A stretch of DNA of 64,000 bases from Pochonia chlamydosporia 170. Taxonomy: Eukaryota > Ascomycota > Sordariomycetes > Hypocreales > Clavicipitaceae. The translations under genes and the position numbers were made by a program. Of this stretch, positions 1,952 through 10,139 are shown piece after piece. Numbering within the stretch: the first letter of the stretch is position 1; the number at the start of each line of letters is the position of its first letter. The notes beneath the pieces are model-generated. The model saw only the letters and a program-made list of their open reading frames with translations, was not told the DNA's origin and did no database searches. Location of the stretch: assembly GCF_001653235.2 (NCBI RefSeq), contig NC_035796.1, positions 2,604,001 through 2,668,000 on the forward strand. The letters are read 5' to 3'.

Positions 1952-3464
1952 TTTGTCGAGTTTGCAATTGAGTTAGCGAGAGGCGACGAGGCTGTGTTTG
2001 CTGCTCAGGTTTTGTAGACACAGGCGTCTTGAGCGTAGTTTTGTAGGTTGTTGCGCTGCTAGGGGTTCACGTATGGAGGGGTCGGCGAGAGAAAAGGGGA
2101 TTACAACAGGTGCGCAGTATCCATTCTATGTCGGGAAATAGAATTCGATCTCGCAGATGCAGGTTCGTCGACAGAGGTTGAAAGAGGAGAACTGGCTCAG
2201 GAGTGCATGGATTGGGTGATTTCTTCGGTCCTGGGAATTCGATGTCCGAGAAACAAAAAGTGGCGTGGTGCGGTTTGAGAGGAAGGCGGTGTCTGCCGGC
2301 CGACAAGAACTTGACCAGACAAGACGGAGTCGAGCACGTTTGCTGTCAACTGGAGGTGTTTGGTGCCTGGACAGGGGCAGGCACAGAACTTTAATGGCCA
2401 CAGACAGGAGCTGAGGGGTTGTGGGGCAAAATGAGCTCCAGAGTTGTGCATCTTTGCTTGTTGGAGCTGAGCCGCGTCAGTGTTGGCTGGATATTCATTA
2501 ATGGAGTTGGTCGAAGATGTCAAGGAGGGACCAGATTGGTGGGTCAGATCCCGATACACCACCATTTACTCTGTCATGGTGATTGCCATCTTTCTCATCT
2601 CATCAAACACCTACCTACCTAGGTACCTATATGGCTAGGTGCTCAAACCTCAATTTTCAAACGTGTAAAGATTGCGTTAATGAGCCGCGTGCAAGTCTGA
2701 TGGCTTGTGAGCTGGGCTAAGCTGGTGCAAGTAAGTTCTTCTTCTCGCCCAACCGAATGCCATTTTTTACGGGATATACGAGTGTGCGTATATAGTGAGA
2801 GGAAATGATCGTGGACTTGCGAGTTGTTGTATCCGCGATAGATTAAGCTTTGCACAAAATGGGCCGTCCAAAGCATGAAGTTACCCAAGATGTCGGGCTC
2901 GAGTGGTTGAGTGTGCATCGTATCAAGACCGTTCCATGTTGTGAAGCAGGGCAATCAATTGACATCTGGATGAGCCGCTCTCAGTCTGGTTCGGTCCCGT
3001 AGGCTGGGTTGCACCTTCCCTCCTCGCCACTCATCACAATCTTTTGATCAGCCCAGATCGCACTCACAGCCTCATCTCATGCAGCCAATTTATGTCCGCT
3101 TGCCGGTCACGCATCTCACCTCCTCGTACTTTTGTCAAACCTTGAAACTTCGCACGAGCGCTATCAACCTCGCCATTCATGCCGTTCATCCATGTTCAAA
3201 AATACGTCGAAGCCACCGAGAAAGTTAAGCCAGATGCCTACATTGCATGATGGATCTACCCGCTCGAGGTCGAGCAGATGGCTGCCTGGGAAATGCAAGA
3301 CGAGGAGCACGAGGCACTATCACAGTTGCCAAGGGATCACAATGCGTATAAACTCGGCAGCATAAATGGTCATAAAGTGGTTATTGCCGGCCTTGACCAG
3401 CCAGGAAACTGTCCAACTGCACTCCAACGGCGCTGCTTCTTCCGCCTGCGACGAATACTTGACC
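1952..3464. other. Intergenic region, desaturase promoter side
   Basis: Upstream of the desaturase and downstream of the 3465-4741 gene. It contains a TACCTAGGTA palindrome at 2616-2625 inside a longer CCTACC/GGTACC tract. Only short unconvincing ORFs in several frames. Confidence 0.5.
2616..2625. repeat. TACCTAGGTA palindrome
   Basis: Perfect 10-bp palindrome extended by CTACC on the left and CCTA on the right. The same core recurs at 17552, 50871, 53282 and 62626. Confidence 0.8.
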
Positions 3465-4741
3465 CTAGTAATCACATTTACCACAATAACCACACTCTTT
3501 ATCGCAGGCTGTGTAGTCACGCTCTTCTAGCTCATAGTCGTACCTGTCGCAATCCAAATCGAAAGCCCGCCACCTCGACAGAATGTCTTCTTCCTCCTCT
3601 CGGCATTCTTGCTCTGACATACGAGACGCCGTGTGCTCTTCTTGGCCATTGTCATCCTGGTTCGATGCCGAGTTTCCTTCATCGCCTGCAACGACGCCAA
3701 GAGCAGAGCGGATCATGCATTTACAGTCATCACCAATACCGTTGCTTCGCGAAGTCTCCCGAAGGATCTGAATTAGCTGGTCACGATTGCCATTGCTGCC
3801 AACGTTTGACCGTAGAGCATCTTGAAAGGCAGTCGTCAAATTCGCTTGAATAGCTTGTCGCTGCGCATGAGAAGCTTTCAGCAAGGTATCTTCGCCGCAG
3901 TTCATGGTGAGTTCCGTGATTTCCGCTGCATTCAGGTTTTGTGACCATGTCGGGTTAAGATCCAGATTGAGATCTTTCCCGATGGACGCAAGCCCTGATT
4001 TCAAATCGTTAAAGGCAAGTAGACTCAGAAGTTTGCCTTTCCCAGGGGTATGGGTATTGAGGTTAAAGATTACCCTCAGTACTTGGTGTAAGTGCAAGAT
4101 TTCGGCGGGAGGCGTAAACGCATCTGTTCCTCCCAAGGTCTCAATTTTACCAGTCCCCTCGTTGTTGCCAATAGCGCTGCCTTTAGCAGCTACCGGAGTC
4201 GTAAGCAACCTCAAGTTAGACGGATCGTCTGTTTGAGGACGTTTCGGTCGCTCACCCAGGTCAATATCACGAGCAGGTCTTGCCAACGTCGCCCGCCAGT
4301 GATGTATGTTGACCGGGTCCTTTTGGTAAATGTTGACCTCGAAAAACTTGTCATGTGTTTTACACTTGTAGTTCTTATACCTTGGCGCAGTTGTAAGGCT
4401 TCATCTGACAACAAAACATGTAAAGGGCATACGTACGAATTCAGTTTCTCAAAGTTGGCTCGAATCAGGTCGTCCTCTGCTACCTCAATAAAATCGTTGC
4501 TACTGTTCTTGGCAGGAACAAAATACTTCTTTGACTCCAGGCTGCCATAGTTCTTCTGCCGGACAAGCTGGACGGCAAATGGTGCAAGATCAACGACGTC
4601 AGGTTCGTCTTTGTTAGTGCTGAGGGCGGATTCTCTTGGAAAGGCAGCCCACGACAGGAAGGACGTGAATTTGCTCTCGTGAGAGAGATACTGGGGCCGG
4701 TAAGGCTTGATGTCTGCACAACAAAAGACAAGTGACGCCAT
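3465..4741 (-). CDS. Unknown protein with C-terminal CDxxCGxCG motif
   Basis: Two exons give an open frame of 406 residues: 4741-4437 and 4380-3465. The 56-nt intron starts gtacgt and ends ccaag, with a CTTAC-like branch. The AAG acceptor is unusual, so the border may be slightly off. Other acceptors tried gave a stop or too short an intron. I do not recognise a catalytic domain. The N-terminal third mixes hydrophobic and charged residues, the middle is helical and Asn/Gln-rich, and the end is acidic (a run of Glu near residue 364) and Asp/Tyr-rich. The last 13 residues hold four cysteines in the pattern CDKECGYCGKC. A similar tail ends the protein at 25926-26471. No signal peptide is evident. 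Possibly a fungal-specific conserved hypothetical. Confidence 0.7.
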
Positions 4742-7371: not shown

Positions 7372-9428
7372 ATGAAGGTCATTTCTATTGTCCTCGTGGC
7401 TCTCGCCGGAGTAGCCTTCGCCAACCCAATCAATGCCGATGAGCCGCAACTCGAGAAACGTGCTAAAGTGAGAGTTTGACTGGCAGCTGAAACAGTTTGC
7501 CTGAAATTGCGAAATAGAATGGTCGAACTAACTGGTTTTAGTGGGTTAGTGTATCAGGAGGTGGTGCTGAGGGTTGAGGGCTAACAAGTACTGCTTCATG
7601 TCTTAGTGTGTAAGTGGAATTGACCCAGGCATCTCCAAACACGGGCTGAAAGTCGTGAATAATACTGACAATACTCCTCGACAGACCGTAGGTTTTCAGT
7701 TTCTTGAGACAATGGTCCAATGCTGATAGTCGACAACTCAGGGAGCCAACGGTGTTAGTATCCCCTTTGACAACCAGCGAACGCATGCCTCGAATACTAA
7801 GATATTTTTTTAGGGTGTAAGCTATTCATAAATGACATCTAATCGAATGCAAACTCGTACGACTAATGCCTCTGTGTGACTGCAGGGAGTAAGTGCCACG
7901 CGAACAGGAATAAGAGTTAAGCTAATTGTGAGGTGTAGTGGGTTCGTATTTACGGCCGGCTGCTCAGCTATTGACCAATATTTCTAATTCTCATTTAGTG
8001 TGTAAGTAATGCTTTGCTTTTGGATTATAACAAGATTATGAGCTAACTATCATTCATAGCCTGTTAGTGGCGAACCGAAATTCTCAACTTTACCGAACGC
8101 TAACCCTCTCAGGATGTCCGTTGAGGTCCTATCCCGACTATAGTGGCATTTAACTGAATACCACCAAACAGAACGTGAGAAAACCAAGTAACCAAGTGAA
8201 TAATCTAAAACTAACACGCAGTCATAGTACGTACGTTGATATGCATGAGCGCTATCAGATATTGTACTTACCGCTAGCAGAGCGTACGTCATATACAGCC
8301 TGGACAATATCCTTGTGGCCGTCATTCTCACAAGATCAGTAGTGTGTGAGTCGCAAACATATAAGCCGTCTAGCATGAACTTGTCATACTAATGTCTTAG
8401 TGCGTACGTATCACATAACGGGCTACTATGATGACAAAGACTAAGCCGAGATGTAGCAATGTGTAAGTATTTGTTGATTTGGGCTTTTGGAAAGTGGCTA
8501 ATTGTTGTCCAAGGCTGTGAGTGCTCAGACATAACATTGTCTTTATACATTGAGCATAGCTAATAACCTCATTAGGGAGTAAGTAGCATTAGAAATATTA
8601 ATGTATGCTGCGATGCTAACATGATACAGAACGTGAGTTTATCAATAATATGACATGTTAAAGGGAATCTAAGCCTGACCTTATTGCAGTGGGTAAGTCG
8701 CGGCAGACATTGCACCAGCAGTACGACGAAAATGACACTGACACATATCAGGGTGTAAGTACTTCCCAAGTCCCAGCAATACATTGTTCTGTTGCACAAT
8801 TACTAATTGCCATGTTCTGTAGTGCGTAAGTTGATAGTCAACCATGATCTGTATGATGGTTAAAATACTCAGACTTGTAATAGCGTGTAAGTGTCATAAC
8901 CAAACTGCATGTTGTGCTGAAACTAACATTCAATAATTAGCCCGTAAGTTTAGCCACAAGATTTAAATTCCTGTTTGATAGCGTACTAACAATTCGTAGA
9001 AAGTAAGTTGCATCGCATCCTACAATCCTCCCGTTGCTGACCAGATTCAGGGTGTAAGTGCAAATCGCTGAACAATCTAACTCAACTAAACGCCAACAAA
9101 TTGCTAGGGAGTAAGTATCTACATCAAAAAGTATTGTTCCCATGCTAACGATTTGCAGATTGTAAGAAATGCCCACCCCTGACAAACTGATTTCTGGCCA
9201 GTGACAAGTTAACACTTCCTAGTGCGTAAGTGTCATAACTATAAACAATTATAGGTCACCGAGTACTGTCATGCAGGGAAAAGTAACCAACCATATCAGG
9301 CTGTAAGTTTTTACTCCACACGTCAAAGCGATAATACGTGCTTCCGTCTAACTCGTGAGTATAGTGCGTAAGTTTTGCCACGCTGTCAGACACTATTATT
9401 CAGTGGCTCTTATCATCGTTAGGCATAA
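7372..9428 (+). CDS. Micro-exon gene: 33-exon secreted cysteine-rich peptide precursor
   Basis: Exon 1 (7372-7467, 32 codons) encodes a signal peptide (MKVISIVLVALAGVAFA) and a short acidic propeptide ending LEKR, a Kex2 cleavage site. After it, 32 introns of 48-75 nt separate 31 tiny internal exons: 29 of 3 nt, one of 12 nt (7742-7753) and one of 6 nt (8457-8462). A last exon (GCA TAA, 9423-9428) ends the frame. All introns are phase 0. Sixteen of 32 donors are exactly gtaagt, acceptors are nearly all tag/cag, and most have a CTAAC/CTGAC/CTAAT branch site. The spliced preproprotein is 68 residues and the part after Lys-Arg is 38 residues. It has eight cysteines spaced C-x8-C-x5-CC-x-C-x5-C-x6-C-x-C, a knottin-like (inhibitor cystine knot) framework, plus three Trp and many Gly. 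Its function is unknown: antimicrobial, effector or signalling peptide are all possible. I recall no described fungal gene of this architecture. Uncertain points are exon 14 (S, or QS via a tandem acceptor), exon 18 (AAG acceptor) and the last exon. Confidence 0.88.
7468..8400 (+). other. Micro-exon array, first half (exon table)
   Basis: Exons read as AG|exon|GT. E2 7542-7544; E3 7607-7609 (Cys); E4 7685-7687; E5 7742-7753 (four codons); E6 7814-7816; E7 7886-7888; E8 7939-7941; E9 7999-8001 (Cys); E10 8060-8062; E11 8113-8115; E12 8172-8174; E13 8228-8230; E14 8281-8283; E15 8343-8345 (Cys). Intron lengths in order: 74, 62, 75, 54, 60, 69, 50, 57, 58, 50, 56, 53, 50, 59, 55. Donors here vary more (gtgaga, gttagt, gtaagt, gtaggt, gttcgt, gtccgt, gtacgt) than in the second half. 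E13 and E15 have an upstream alternative acceptor that would add an in-frame TAG, so the downstream one is chosen. Confidence 0.85.
8401..9428 (+). other. Micro-exon array, second half (exon table)
   Basis: E16 8401-8403 (Cys); E17 8457-8462 (second codon Cys); E18 8514-8516; E19 8576-8578; E20 8630-8632; E21 8690-8692; E22 8752-8754; E23 8823-8825 (Cys); E24 8884-8886; E25 8941-8943; E26 9000-9002; E27 9051-9053; E28 9108-9110; E29 9159-9161; E30 9223-9225 (Cys); E31 9300-9302; E32 9365-9367 (Cys); E33 9423-9428 with TAA. Twelve of the fourteen introns after E19 begin gtaagt (exceptions after E20 and E29). After E30, an upstream acceptor (9276) would give a 26-nt exon and break the frame, supporting the 74-nt intron. 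For the final intron the acceptor at 9403 would instead open a tail running to a TAA near 9600, so the C-terminus is the least certain part. Confidence 0.83.
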
Positions 9429-10139
9429 ATTCGCCGACTCGAGCCCATTTAACACGAAGGAACCGACGCCTCGACGTGCAAGGCTCCGGCCTTGGTACAT
9501 GCGATACGGCTGGACTTGGAAGCCTTCGGCCGTTGTATGGAGTTCTCCGATGGAGTTTAAGCTCGGCCGGTCGTTGGCGGGATATTGTAGCCTTTTAATT
9601 GACAAGGTCGGAAGACTGATTTGAGGATTTACTAAACGTAAAATTGAGATGAGAGTGATGTGAATAAGTGTATTGACCTTATTTCGTACAGATGTACCTG
9701 GTCAAGAATGGGAGAGTGTTGCATGAACTGACCTTCAAGCTAGCCTACGGAGTACACACAGCCCAGATCAACCCGAGGACTCGAAACCCATCTCTGGCAG
9801 TCTATTCAAATATAGAACAATGAGTATTTCCATGCAATTCCACTTCTGAAGTAAACGACTAGCTCATTTCGTACATCCAGATACCAGGGCCGTCATATTA
9901 GGCCCACGACTGAAGCATCTGCCGATATCGACATGTAATTTTCGGTTTATTCCATTAATTCTGTTTTACATTTTGCATTCTCCAGTGCAACACTTCTACA
10001 ATACTTCAATGTTTACTGTCCATACTTTGTACCCGTGATGTCCCTCGCCCACGTGTACCATCTGCTGAGCACCATCGTCAATCCACATTCTCCACTCAGC
10101 CTCAACCTCAACCTCAACTCCCACCTCGCAACTCACACA
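9429..10139. other. Intergenic: 3' UTR of the micro-exon gene and promoter of the next gene
   Basis: GC-richer just after the micro-exon gene, then AT-rich. Contains a TACGGAGTAC motif at 9746-9755. The leader before 10140 is a CT/CA-rich repeat (cctcaacctcaacctcaac). Confidence 0.5.

Follow-up and report, generated by a model that had tools for sequence, protein, structure and literature searches.

A fungal locus predicted to encode a secreted eight-cysteine peptide in tandem single-codon exons

Can a gene be divided so finely that almost every residue of its product comes from an exon of its own? This question is raised by a locus of the fungus Pochonia chlamydosporia 170, located at 7372-9428 on the plus strand of a 64,000-nucleotide stretch of contig NC_035796.1 (positions 2,604,001 to 2,668,000; hereafter the window). 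We conclude that the locus is very probably a gene for a small secreted peptide, from which 32 short introns are predicted to be lost while exon 1 is joined to 31 tiny exons, giving a 68-residue precursor. The exon order, the cysteine order of an intronless paralogue (L025), three sister arrays in the same genome (L023, L024 and L026), near-identical introns in L026 and a shared 3' RNA element can all be read from the genome sequence.

Joining the exons by script gives exon 1, 31 internal exons and a last exon, separated by 32 introns. Twenty-nine of the internal exons measure 3 nt; the other two have 12 nt (7742-7753) and 6 nt (8457-8462). This reproduces exactly the counts of the initial annotation of this DNA, which had claimed one normal exon, 31 internal exons, 29 of them single-codon, and 32 phase-0 introns. 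Every intron starts with GT, ends with AG and lies in phase 0, and their lengths range from 48 to 75 nt (median 56.5). The 31 internal exons encode 35 codons and the last exon reads GCA TAA. The joined frame is MKVISIVLVALAGVAFANPINADEPQLEKR, the exon-1 product, followed by AKWCTGANGGGWCPDNYSCCQCAGNWGCRPKGGICACA, the product joined from the downstream exons, and a stop; the resulting 68-residue precursor ends in an eight-cysteine peptide. A signal peptide and a Lys-Arg site of the Kex2 type are predicted by reading the sequence with its hydrophobic start, and together with the eight cysteines in an open frame they bear out what had been proposed. Retention of an intron would shift the frame or add a stop in 28 of the 32 cases. 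Donor position +5 is G in all 32 introns, and 16 carry GTAAGT; because the search pattern itself required the G at +5, that G does not count as independent evidence. A YTRAY branch-like motif lies near the 3' end of 25 introns. The good GT and AG signals described earlier are thus present throughout, while the branch signal is clear in only these 25. The features of the gene model are as follows.

7372..7467, plus strand: exon 1, with signal peptide, propeptide, Lys-Arg site and Ala-Lys (predicted; open ATG frame, hydrophobic start)
7468..9422, plus strand: array of 32 introns (GT-AG, phase 0)
Plus strand, introns 1-8 of the gene model: 7468-7541, 7545-7606, 7610-7684, 7688-7741, 7754-7813, 7817-7885, 7889-7938, 7942-7998
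Plus strand, introns 9-16 of the gene model: 8002-8059, 8063-8112, 8116-8171, 8175-8227, 8231-8280, 8284-8342, 8346-8400, 8404-8456
Plus strand, introns 17-24 of the gene model: 8463-8513, 8517-8575, 8579-8629, 8633-8689, 8693-8751, 8755-8822, 8826-8883, 8887-8940
Plus strand, introns 25-32 of the gene model: 8944-8999, 9003-9050, 9054-9107, 9111-9158, 9162-9222, 9226-9299, 9303-9364, 9368-9422
7542..7544, plus strand: micro-exon TGG (W)
7607..7609, plus strand: micro-exon TGT (C1)
7685..7687, plus strand: micro-exon ACC (T)
7742..7753, plus strand: 12-nt exon GGAGCCAACGGT (GANG)
7814..7816, plus strand: micro-exon GGT (G)
7886..7888, plus strand: micro-exon GGA (G)
7939..7941, plus strand: micro-exon TGG (W)
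7999..8001, plus strand: micro-exon TGT (C2)
8060..8062, plus strand: micro-exon CCT (P)
8113..8115, plus strand: micro-exon GAT (D)
8172..8174, plus strand: micro-exon AAC (N)
8228..8230, plus strand: micro-exon TAC (Y); the free parse described below chose a 5-nt exon at 8222-8226 instead
8281..8283, plus strand: micro-exon AGC (S); the free parse chose 8278-8283
8343..8345, plus strand: micro-exon TGT (C3)
8401..8403, plus strand: micro-exon TGC (C4)
8457..8462, plus strand: 6-nt exon CAATGT (Q, C5)
8514..8516, plus strand: micro-exon GCT (A)
8576..8578, plus strand: micro-exon GGA (G)
8630..8632, plus strand: micro-exon AAC (N)
8690..8692, plus strand: micro-exon TGG (W)
8752..8754, plus strand: micro-exon GGT (G)
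8823..8825, plus strand: micro-exon TGC (C6)
8884..8886, plus strand: micro-exon CGT (R)
8941..8943, plus strand: micro-exon CCC (P)
9000..9002, plus strand: micro-exon AAA (K)
9051..9053, plus strand: micro-exon GGT (G)
9108..9110, plus strand: micro-exon GGA (G)
9159..9161, plus strand: micro-exon ATT (I)
9223..9225, plus strand: micro-exon TGC (C7)
9300..9302, plus strand: micro-exon GCT (A)
9365..9367, plus strand: micro-exon TGC (C8)
9423..9428, plus strand: last coding exon GCA TAA (A, stop); the free parse passed over this acceptor and took one at 9482

Could such an order arise by chance? We searched for chains of the junction [ACT]AG-NNN-GTNNG in which successive junctions are linked by introns of 45-80 nt. 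The longest chain at the locus has 15 junctions, where it stops because the 12-nt and 6-nt exons cut the run; elsewhere in the window no chain on either strand exceeds 1. Among 20 stretches of 10 kb from the same genome, read on both strands, the maximum was 2 in 6 of 40 cases and 1 in the other 34, and of 300 dinucleotide shuffles of the locus one reached 3 and the rest less. Cysteine codons make up 8 of the 35, with P 8e-7 against AG-NNN-GT sites elsewhere (2.2%) and P 2.5e-5 against triplets within the array's own introns (3.5%). A larger tandem repeat was also considered and rejected, as Tandem Repeats Finder lists three arrays in the window and none of them at the locus.

An independent check of the exon order is provided by L025, an intronless open reading frame (ORF) of 77 residues with eight cysteines in the same order as in the decoded peptide. 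In a MAFFT alignment the two are 44% identical, all eight cysteines are in register and the pro-regions align up to the Lys-Arg; L025 has two extra cysteines at its C-terminal end. Only 12 of 20,000 reorderings of the decoded residues scored as well against L025 (4 of 2,000 in a second run). This test covered 32 array-peptide pairs, of which the next lowest value was 0.036. Searches with the exon-1 peptide for paralogues returned self-matches only.

The second independent line of support for the gene reading comes from further arrays. A gapless junction pattern around cysteine codons has 29 matches in the 44-Mb genome, against 25 for the reversed pattern, and 14 of the 29 fall into four clusters: the locus (5), L023 (4), L024 (2) and L026 (3). 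Taken together, three junction patterns gave 29, 21 and 71 matches genome-wide versus 25, 31 and 72 when reversed, with 14, 9 and 8 of them within the four arrays. The cysteine, glycine and Gln/His/Asn/Lys junction patterns yielded no array beyond these four, and arrays poor in GTAAGT could escape them. A covariance model of the junctions found 21 matches in the sequence examined, all in the array used to build it. The sister arrays are modelled as follows.

L023: 33 introns; 32 of 32 internal exons are one codon; product MKFSVALPIIAAALAVANPVMDHSIEAR then QRQPSCHFYCSHEGTFGNEPGFYDFCMAHICR, stop
L024: 33 introns; 32 of 32 internal exons are single-codon; product MNTKITLLAMVTGVTAATQAVLAGTVD then CIPEYQRCETLGQPCCHDHHCRIFQGYMNHGY; two endings fit
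L026: 10 introns; 9 of 9 internal exons are single-codon; product MKVVYIVSTALTGLAAAIPLVDSTPSKTLEKR then QQCDQCPLC, stop

Each array thus holds 10 to 33 introns, all four products are cysteine-rich, and the pooled gene models contain 104 internal exons, 102 of which have exactly 3 nt. Two candidates were discarded: a possible fifth array at C5:187005/187821, where two pattern matches lie 816 bases apart, and a lone match near the start of C5 both proved to be AT-rich repeats without such an array. These places (L038 near 187 kb of C5 and L039 at its start) are copies of an AT-rich repeat with TAGCAAGTAAGT, by their look the remains of transposons mutated by repeat-induced point mutation.

Since the models of L023, L024 and L026 were drawn from the single-codon pattern itself, a less circular measure is a free parse, which used donor, acceptor and branch models from 50 ordinary introns and imposed no rule on phase or exon length. 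The training introns bridge long open frames in 264 kb of the genome; the rule that picked them favours good donors and branch motifs, and they were not checked against proteins. Internal exons of exactly 3 nt made up 27 of 34 at the locus, 30 of 33 in L023 and 31 of 34 in L024. A variant run with controls found 28 three-nt exons at the locus and 31, 31 and 10 in the other arrays, whereas none of the 40 control strands had more than 3. This variant strings weak introns together in any DNA, up to 89 per 10 kb in the control strands, and total scores of the controls reached 412, against 491, 423, 486 and 230 for the four arrays. With the chain test, its controls and the shuffles, these parses rule out chance or base composition as the source of the array, in agreement with the initial annotation. 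The splice signals also bear on the arrays. GTAAGT donors occur in 44 of the 98 introns of the three older arrays (the locus, L023 and L024) but in 9 of 50 ordinary introns (P 0.001), and strong donors are what would be expected if the exon side cannot help U1. The branch-like motif is clear in 25 of 33 introns of L024 and in all 10 of L026.

What kind of peptide is encoded? Among solved structures the decoded peptide has four matches up to E 10; granulins account for three of them, the best at E 0.034 (phmmer, granulin A). The comparison concerns the core CPDxYxCC...WGC of the amino-terminal half of granulin, and none of 20,000 reorderings scored as high against a 19-residue piece that was picked after the fact. 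Membership of the granulin family was dropped because Pfam gave no match. The L024 peptide has the cysteine spacing of an inhibitor cystine knot; given with the last cysteine of one of its endings, it has just two matches among solved structures up to E 10, to a hybrid atracotoxin (E 0.1) and an alpha-amylase inhibitor (E 0.41), both of them cystine-knot peptides. The decoded peptides resemble granulin and inhibitor-cystine-knot peptides in their cysteine spacing, but the matches are weak (E 0.03 to 0.4) and come without a Pfam match.

Several results weigh against the gene reading. Coding log-odds are just mildly positive (P 0.005 and 0.010 on two backgrounds), synonymous codon choice at the locus is indistinguishable from background (P 0.14) and gives no coding signal, and the lack of stops among the 108 micro-exon codons of the four arrays reaches only P 0.055 on the AG-NNN-GT background. 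At 8222-8283 and at either end, the free parse and the model disagree. A clear branch-like motif is found in only 25 of 32 introns at the locus and 18 of 33 in L023, against 45 of 50 in the ordinary set, which was chosen for the motif. The origin of the sister models in the single-codon pattern, noted above, counts here for L023 and L024; one long intron is needed in each of them (116 nt and 131 nt, respectively), and two C-termini fit L024, a further Cys exon or Asn-Val-Ser-Phe-stop. Because 32 pairs were tested, the support for the residue order from L025 shrinks to about 0.02 to 0.06 after correction, the similarity of signal and pro-region apart. Neither the decoded peptide nor its alignment with L025 found a relative among 5.8 billion proteins, in a search that needs shared 5-residue words. 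The decoded peptide matched no Pfam family up to E 10, including the granulin model (PF00396), and the granulin match in solved structures is weak and the best of many, with L025 itself giving no match there.

Two other explanations of the locus have to be considered. The array might be one composite intron of 1,955 nt with the 3-nt pieces serving as recursive-splicing stations, so that in the mature mRNA exon 1 is followed directly by GCA TAA, or many of the codons are missing. The AG-NNN-GT junctions do look like recursive sites, and with every exon in phase 0 any of them can be skipped in frame. However, nothing would then explain why the codons that are skipped include eight cysteines among 35, at the P values given above, and in the order of an intronless paralogue. 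Where stwintrons or recursive introns have one intron interrupting a splice element of another, each intron of the gene model has its own GT and AG, and an exon of at least 3 nt lies in between. We regard this explanation as very unlikely. A decaying or never-functional locus, in which intron copies ran away in a dead gene and productive splicing never occurs, we consider scarcely more probable. It would fit the absence of a homologue in the protein collection, the lack of a clear branch motif in 7 of 32 introns at the locus and 15 of 33 in L023, and the 116-nt and 131-nt introns of L023 and L024. It is hard to reconcile with introns that, if they were once copies, have diverged past recognition and yet keep GT-AG and the +5 G in 32 of 32 cases (most found via that pattern), with 108 micro-exon codons free of stops in the four arrays and with cysteine-rich products in all of them.

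How could a gene for a secreted peptide be expressed from such pieces? In fungi, introns this short are defined across the intron itself, and two splice sites separated by 3 nt cannot be occupied simultaneously, which makes stepwise removal the natural model. In the mechanism that we propose, the ordinary spliceosome would recognise introns rather than exons, each intron offering its own donor and acceptor and most of them a branch-like motif. Since a 3-nt exon is too short for U1 and U2AF to be bound at its two ends at the same time, intron removal would be sequential, and the upstream exon would grow by one codon with each step. The product would then be cut by signal peptidase and, after Lys-Arg, by a Kex2-type protease, releasing a 38-residue eight-cysteine peptide whose predicted fold is small and disulphide-rich and might resemble the first half of a granulin. 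Transcription, splicing order, secretion, fold and function are thus what we infer for the locus.

Where did so many introns come from? Beyond what had been noticed before, the genome holds an array, L026, that is young and whose introns are almost identical to one another. It occupies the extreme end of contig 1. All introns but one (70 nt) measure 71 nt, the period is a constant 74 bp over nine steps, and three-unit blocks match at 96% and 93%. Pairwise differences amount to 6.2% per site among the introns but to 63% among the intervening codons. Near-copy introns next to differing codons suggest that this array is young and that its introns likely arose by local copying. A profile of the L026 introns scores at least 5 bits on 10 of the 33 introns of L024, and on this basis L024 is likely an older array from related introns. 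None of the 33 introns of L023 reaches this score (best 4.8), and none of the 32 at the locus (best 2.6); ordinary introns (0 of 50, best -0.1) and shuffled L024 introns (0 of 660, best 2.2) served as controls. The L023 introns may keep a trace of the L026-type intron. Those at the locus, if they ever were copies, are no longer recognisable by this profile. Local copying of one intron thus probably built the arrays, which have since aged through mutation, in the order L026, L024, and then L023 and the locus, and the two old arrays would share this copying history.

Two routes would be compatible with the gene reading. An introner-like intron may have been copied into the boundaries of pre-existing codons, which we give somewhat less than an even chance. 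The discordance between codons and introns favours it: in a neighbour-joining tree of the L026 introns, 19 changes fall in 71 intron columns and 11 in only 3 codon columns, in line with the pairwise differences. L025, which has the same peptide plan without introns, points the same way. Yet insertion at random should hit the interior of codons too, producing exons of 1, 2, 4 or 5 nt, contrary to the near-constant 3 nt, and a DNA search detected the L026 intron nowhere but in the array. When the genome was searched with three L026 units only the array itself was returned, and the same held for three L024 units; diverged copies could escape such a search. Alternatively, 74-bp units of intron plus codon, one residue each, may have been duplicated in tandem, the codons then being changed under strong diversifying selection, with L025 as a copy from spliced RNA. 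This route also stays just short of an even chance. The fixed 3-nt exon favours it, and so do the constant 74 bp, the period of three in the L026 codons (QQC DQC PLC) and two changes common to introns 7 and 10. But the codons would have to change about 14-fold faster per site than the introns, and although only 1 of 71 sites separates introns 3 and 5, the codons after them are TGT and CAA, respectively. In one fungus, tandem duplication within a gene is reported, in a study of introner-like elements, to account for less than 1% of recent intron gains (PMC4457414).

The arrays also belong to a larger class, likewise not part of the initial annotation. This class comprises 16 loci with a structured RNA element on their 3' side, which at the present locus is

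9527..9573, plus strand: structured RNA element in the predicted 3' untranslated region, common to 15 other loci (alignment columns 10-58)

A DNA search with the 81 bases downstream of the gene found 15 places in the genome including this one, and L023 makes 16. The 13-mer GTATGGAGTTCTC has 14 exact matches genome-wide, all 14 at element places. The element stands just downstream of all four arrays and of 12 other likely secreted-peptide loci, and by reading and a hydrophobicity rule a signal-peptide-like ORF lies upstream on the same strand in 16 of 16 cases. The upstream genes are the four arrays, seven single open frames of 69-83 residues and five with, on partial reading, ordinary introns or repeats; seven ordinary members of the class gave no Pfam match. 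An ORF with a hydrophobic start lies within 700 nt upstream at 12 of 12 non-array places versus 832 of 2,000 random points, and one that starts with MK, MQ or MN at 12 of 12 versus 130 of 2,000, a rule chosen after seeing the loci.

The 16 aligned copies fold into three stacked helices in which 98.2% of pair cells are standard pairs. Slid controls pair at 23-50%, and the structure, having been derived from the same sequences, is favoured over the slid ones. Four pairs vary on both sides, with 12 compensatory cells against 3.8 in shuffles (0 of 500 as high); the number of such doubly changed pairs is itself unexceptional, as 114 of 500 shuffles reach 4. At gathering thresholds the 15 loci L023-L037 matched nothing in Rfam, and positions 9480-9620 had no Rfam match up to E 1. 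At a relaxed threshold two small nucleolar RNA models hit L026; they lie far below their cut-offs and overlap the last intron rather than the element, and we attribute them to chance. The element at 9527-9573 and at L023-L037 is a candidate new RNA family. Since it also follows intronless genes it is not specific to array splicing; as a guess, it might act in message stability, translation or export. By raw count, 14 of the 16 element loci lie within 0.83 Mb of a contig end. Three members have their own peculiarities. L028 (reverse strand, oriented 2863-3406) reads as a precursor in which a 35-residue repeat (ALSARALFNEPPSCPTGSVLDSKREKCVPVRQNPS) occurs in three similar versions, with dibasic-like sites, resembling Kex2-processed repeat precursors; L033 (reverse strand, oriented 2930-3383) has two diverged peptide repeats around Lys-Arg; and the L035 peptide (oriented 3120-3470) shows a cystine-knot-like spacing and is split, by reading, by ordinary introns. 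A neighbour of the main locus, an MBP1-like protein, is 99% identical to a protein of one assembly and 88-90% identical to that of four Metarhizium species, so that the genome is likely that of a clavicipitaceous fungus close to Metarhizium.

Taken further, these loci might represent a new kind of gene with one residue per exon, in which copies of a single intron either were inserted at each codon of a small disulphide-rich peptide or arose together with that codon. The arrays would act as a generator of peptide diversity: whenever a unit is skipped, duplicated or recombined, the product gains or loses exactly one amino acid and the frame stays intact. Young, middle-aged and old arrays would stand side by side in a class marked by a 3' RNA element that could control expression. 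We offer this proposal tentatively and consider it, as a whole, less likely than not. If the arrays are spliced as predicted, an entire protein domain can be built from exons reduced to one codon, and dozens of 3-nt pieces can be put together into a message by intron definition alone. There would then be a class of secreted fungal peptides that standard gene finders miss, as does split-read mapping at the customary minimum exon lengths. The arrays would also form an age series of intron gain within single genes, from near-identical introns (L026) to no residual similarity (the locus), making intron birth, which is usually seen after the fact, directly testable.

How does this architecture compare with known systems? 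We know of no gene class with one exon per codon across a whole domain, and our literature search, with subscription papers mostly outside its scope, turned up isolated single-codon exons and no gene with runs of them, as the initial annotation had supposed. On these grounds we call the architecture categorically new; the splicing chemistry is presumably ordinary. Fusarium, which offers one of the closest parallels, belongs to the same fungal order as the host. In Fusarium CYP621A a 1-nt exon is spliced with read support (PMC12940212), so that such a spliceosome can splice exons shorter than 3 nt; there, it is one isolated micro-exon in a large gene. Exons of 3 nt are described in Drosophila homothorax (PMC7392893) and, two of them, in lipS genes of Dactylellina (PMC5639578). 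These are one or two per gene, compared with dozens in a row here. Fungal introner-like elements and stwintrons are near-identical spliceosomal introns made by copying (PMC4457414; PMC12403724), and the former occur in hundreds of copies in unrelated genes (PMC4457414). L026 shares the near-identity, but by genome DNA search not the dispersal in many unrelated genes: its intron is found only in its own array, and the L024 introns are the only relatives detected in the sets compared. The bicycle genes of aphids encode fast-evolving, likely secreted effectors in about 17 small exons of one phase, phase 2 (PMC9168663). The array at the locus is in phase 0, and the passages covered on bicycle genes contain no single-codon exons. 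Bicycle exons are far longer than one codon. The micro-exon genes of schistosomes also make secreted proteins from many tiny, mostly in-frame exons; these measure 3-81 bp according to the abstract, or 6-81 bp and mostly 15 bp according to the text, and the genes have 10-20 exons and introns of 0.1-5 kb (PMC10526429). With its 31 tandem internal exons of 3-12 nt, far below 51 nt, the gene model presented here is likewise that of a micro-exon gene. It differs from those of schistosomes in its fungal host, in 102 of 104 internal exons modelled at 3 nt across the four arrays, in introns of 48-131 nt and in the near-copies that make up the introns of L026.

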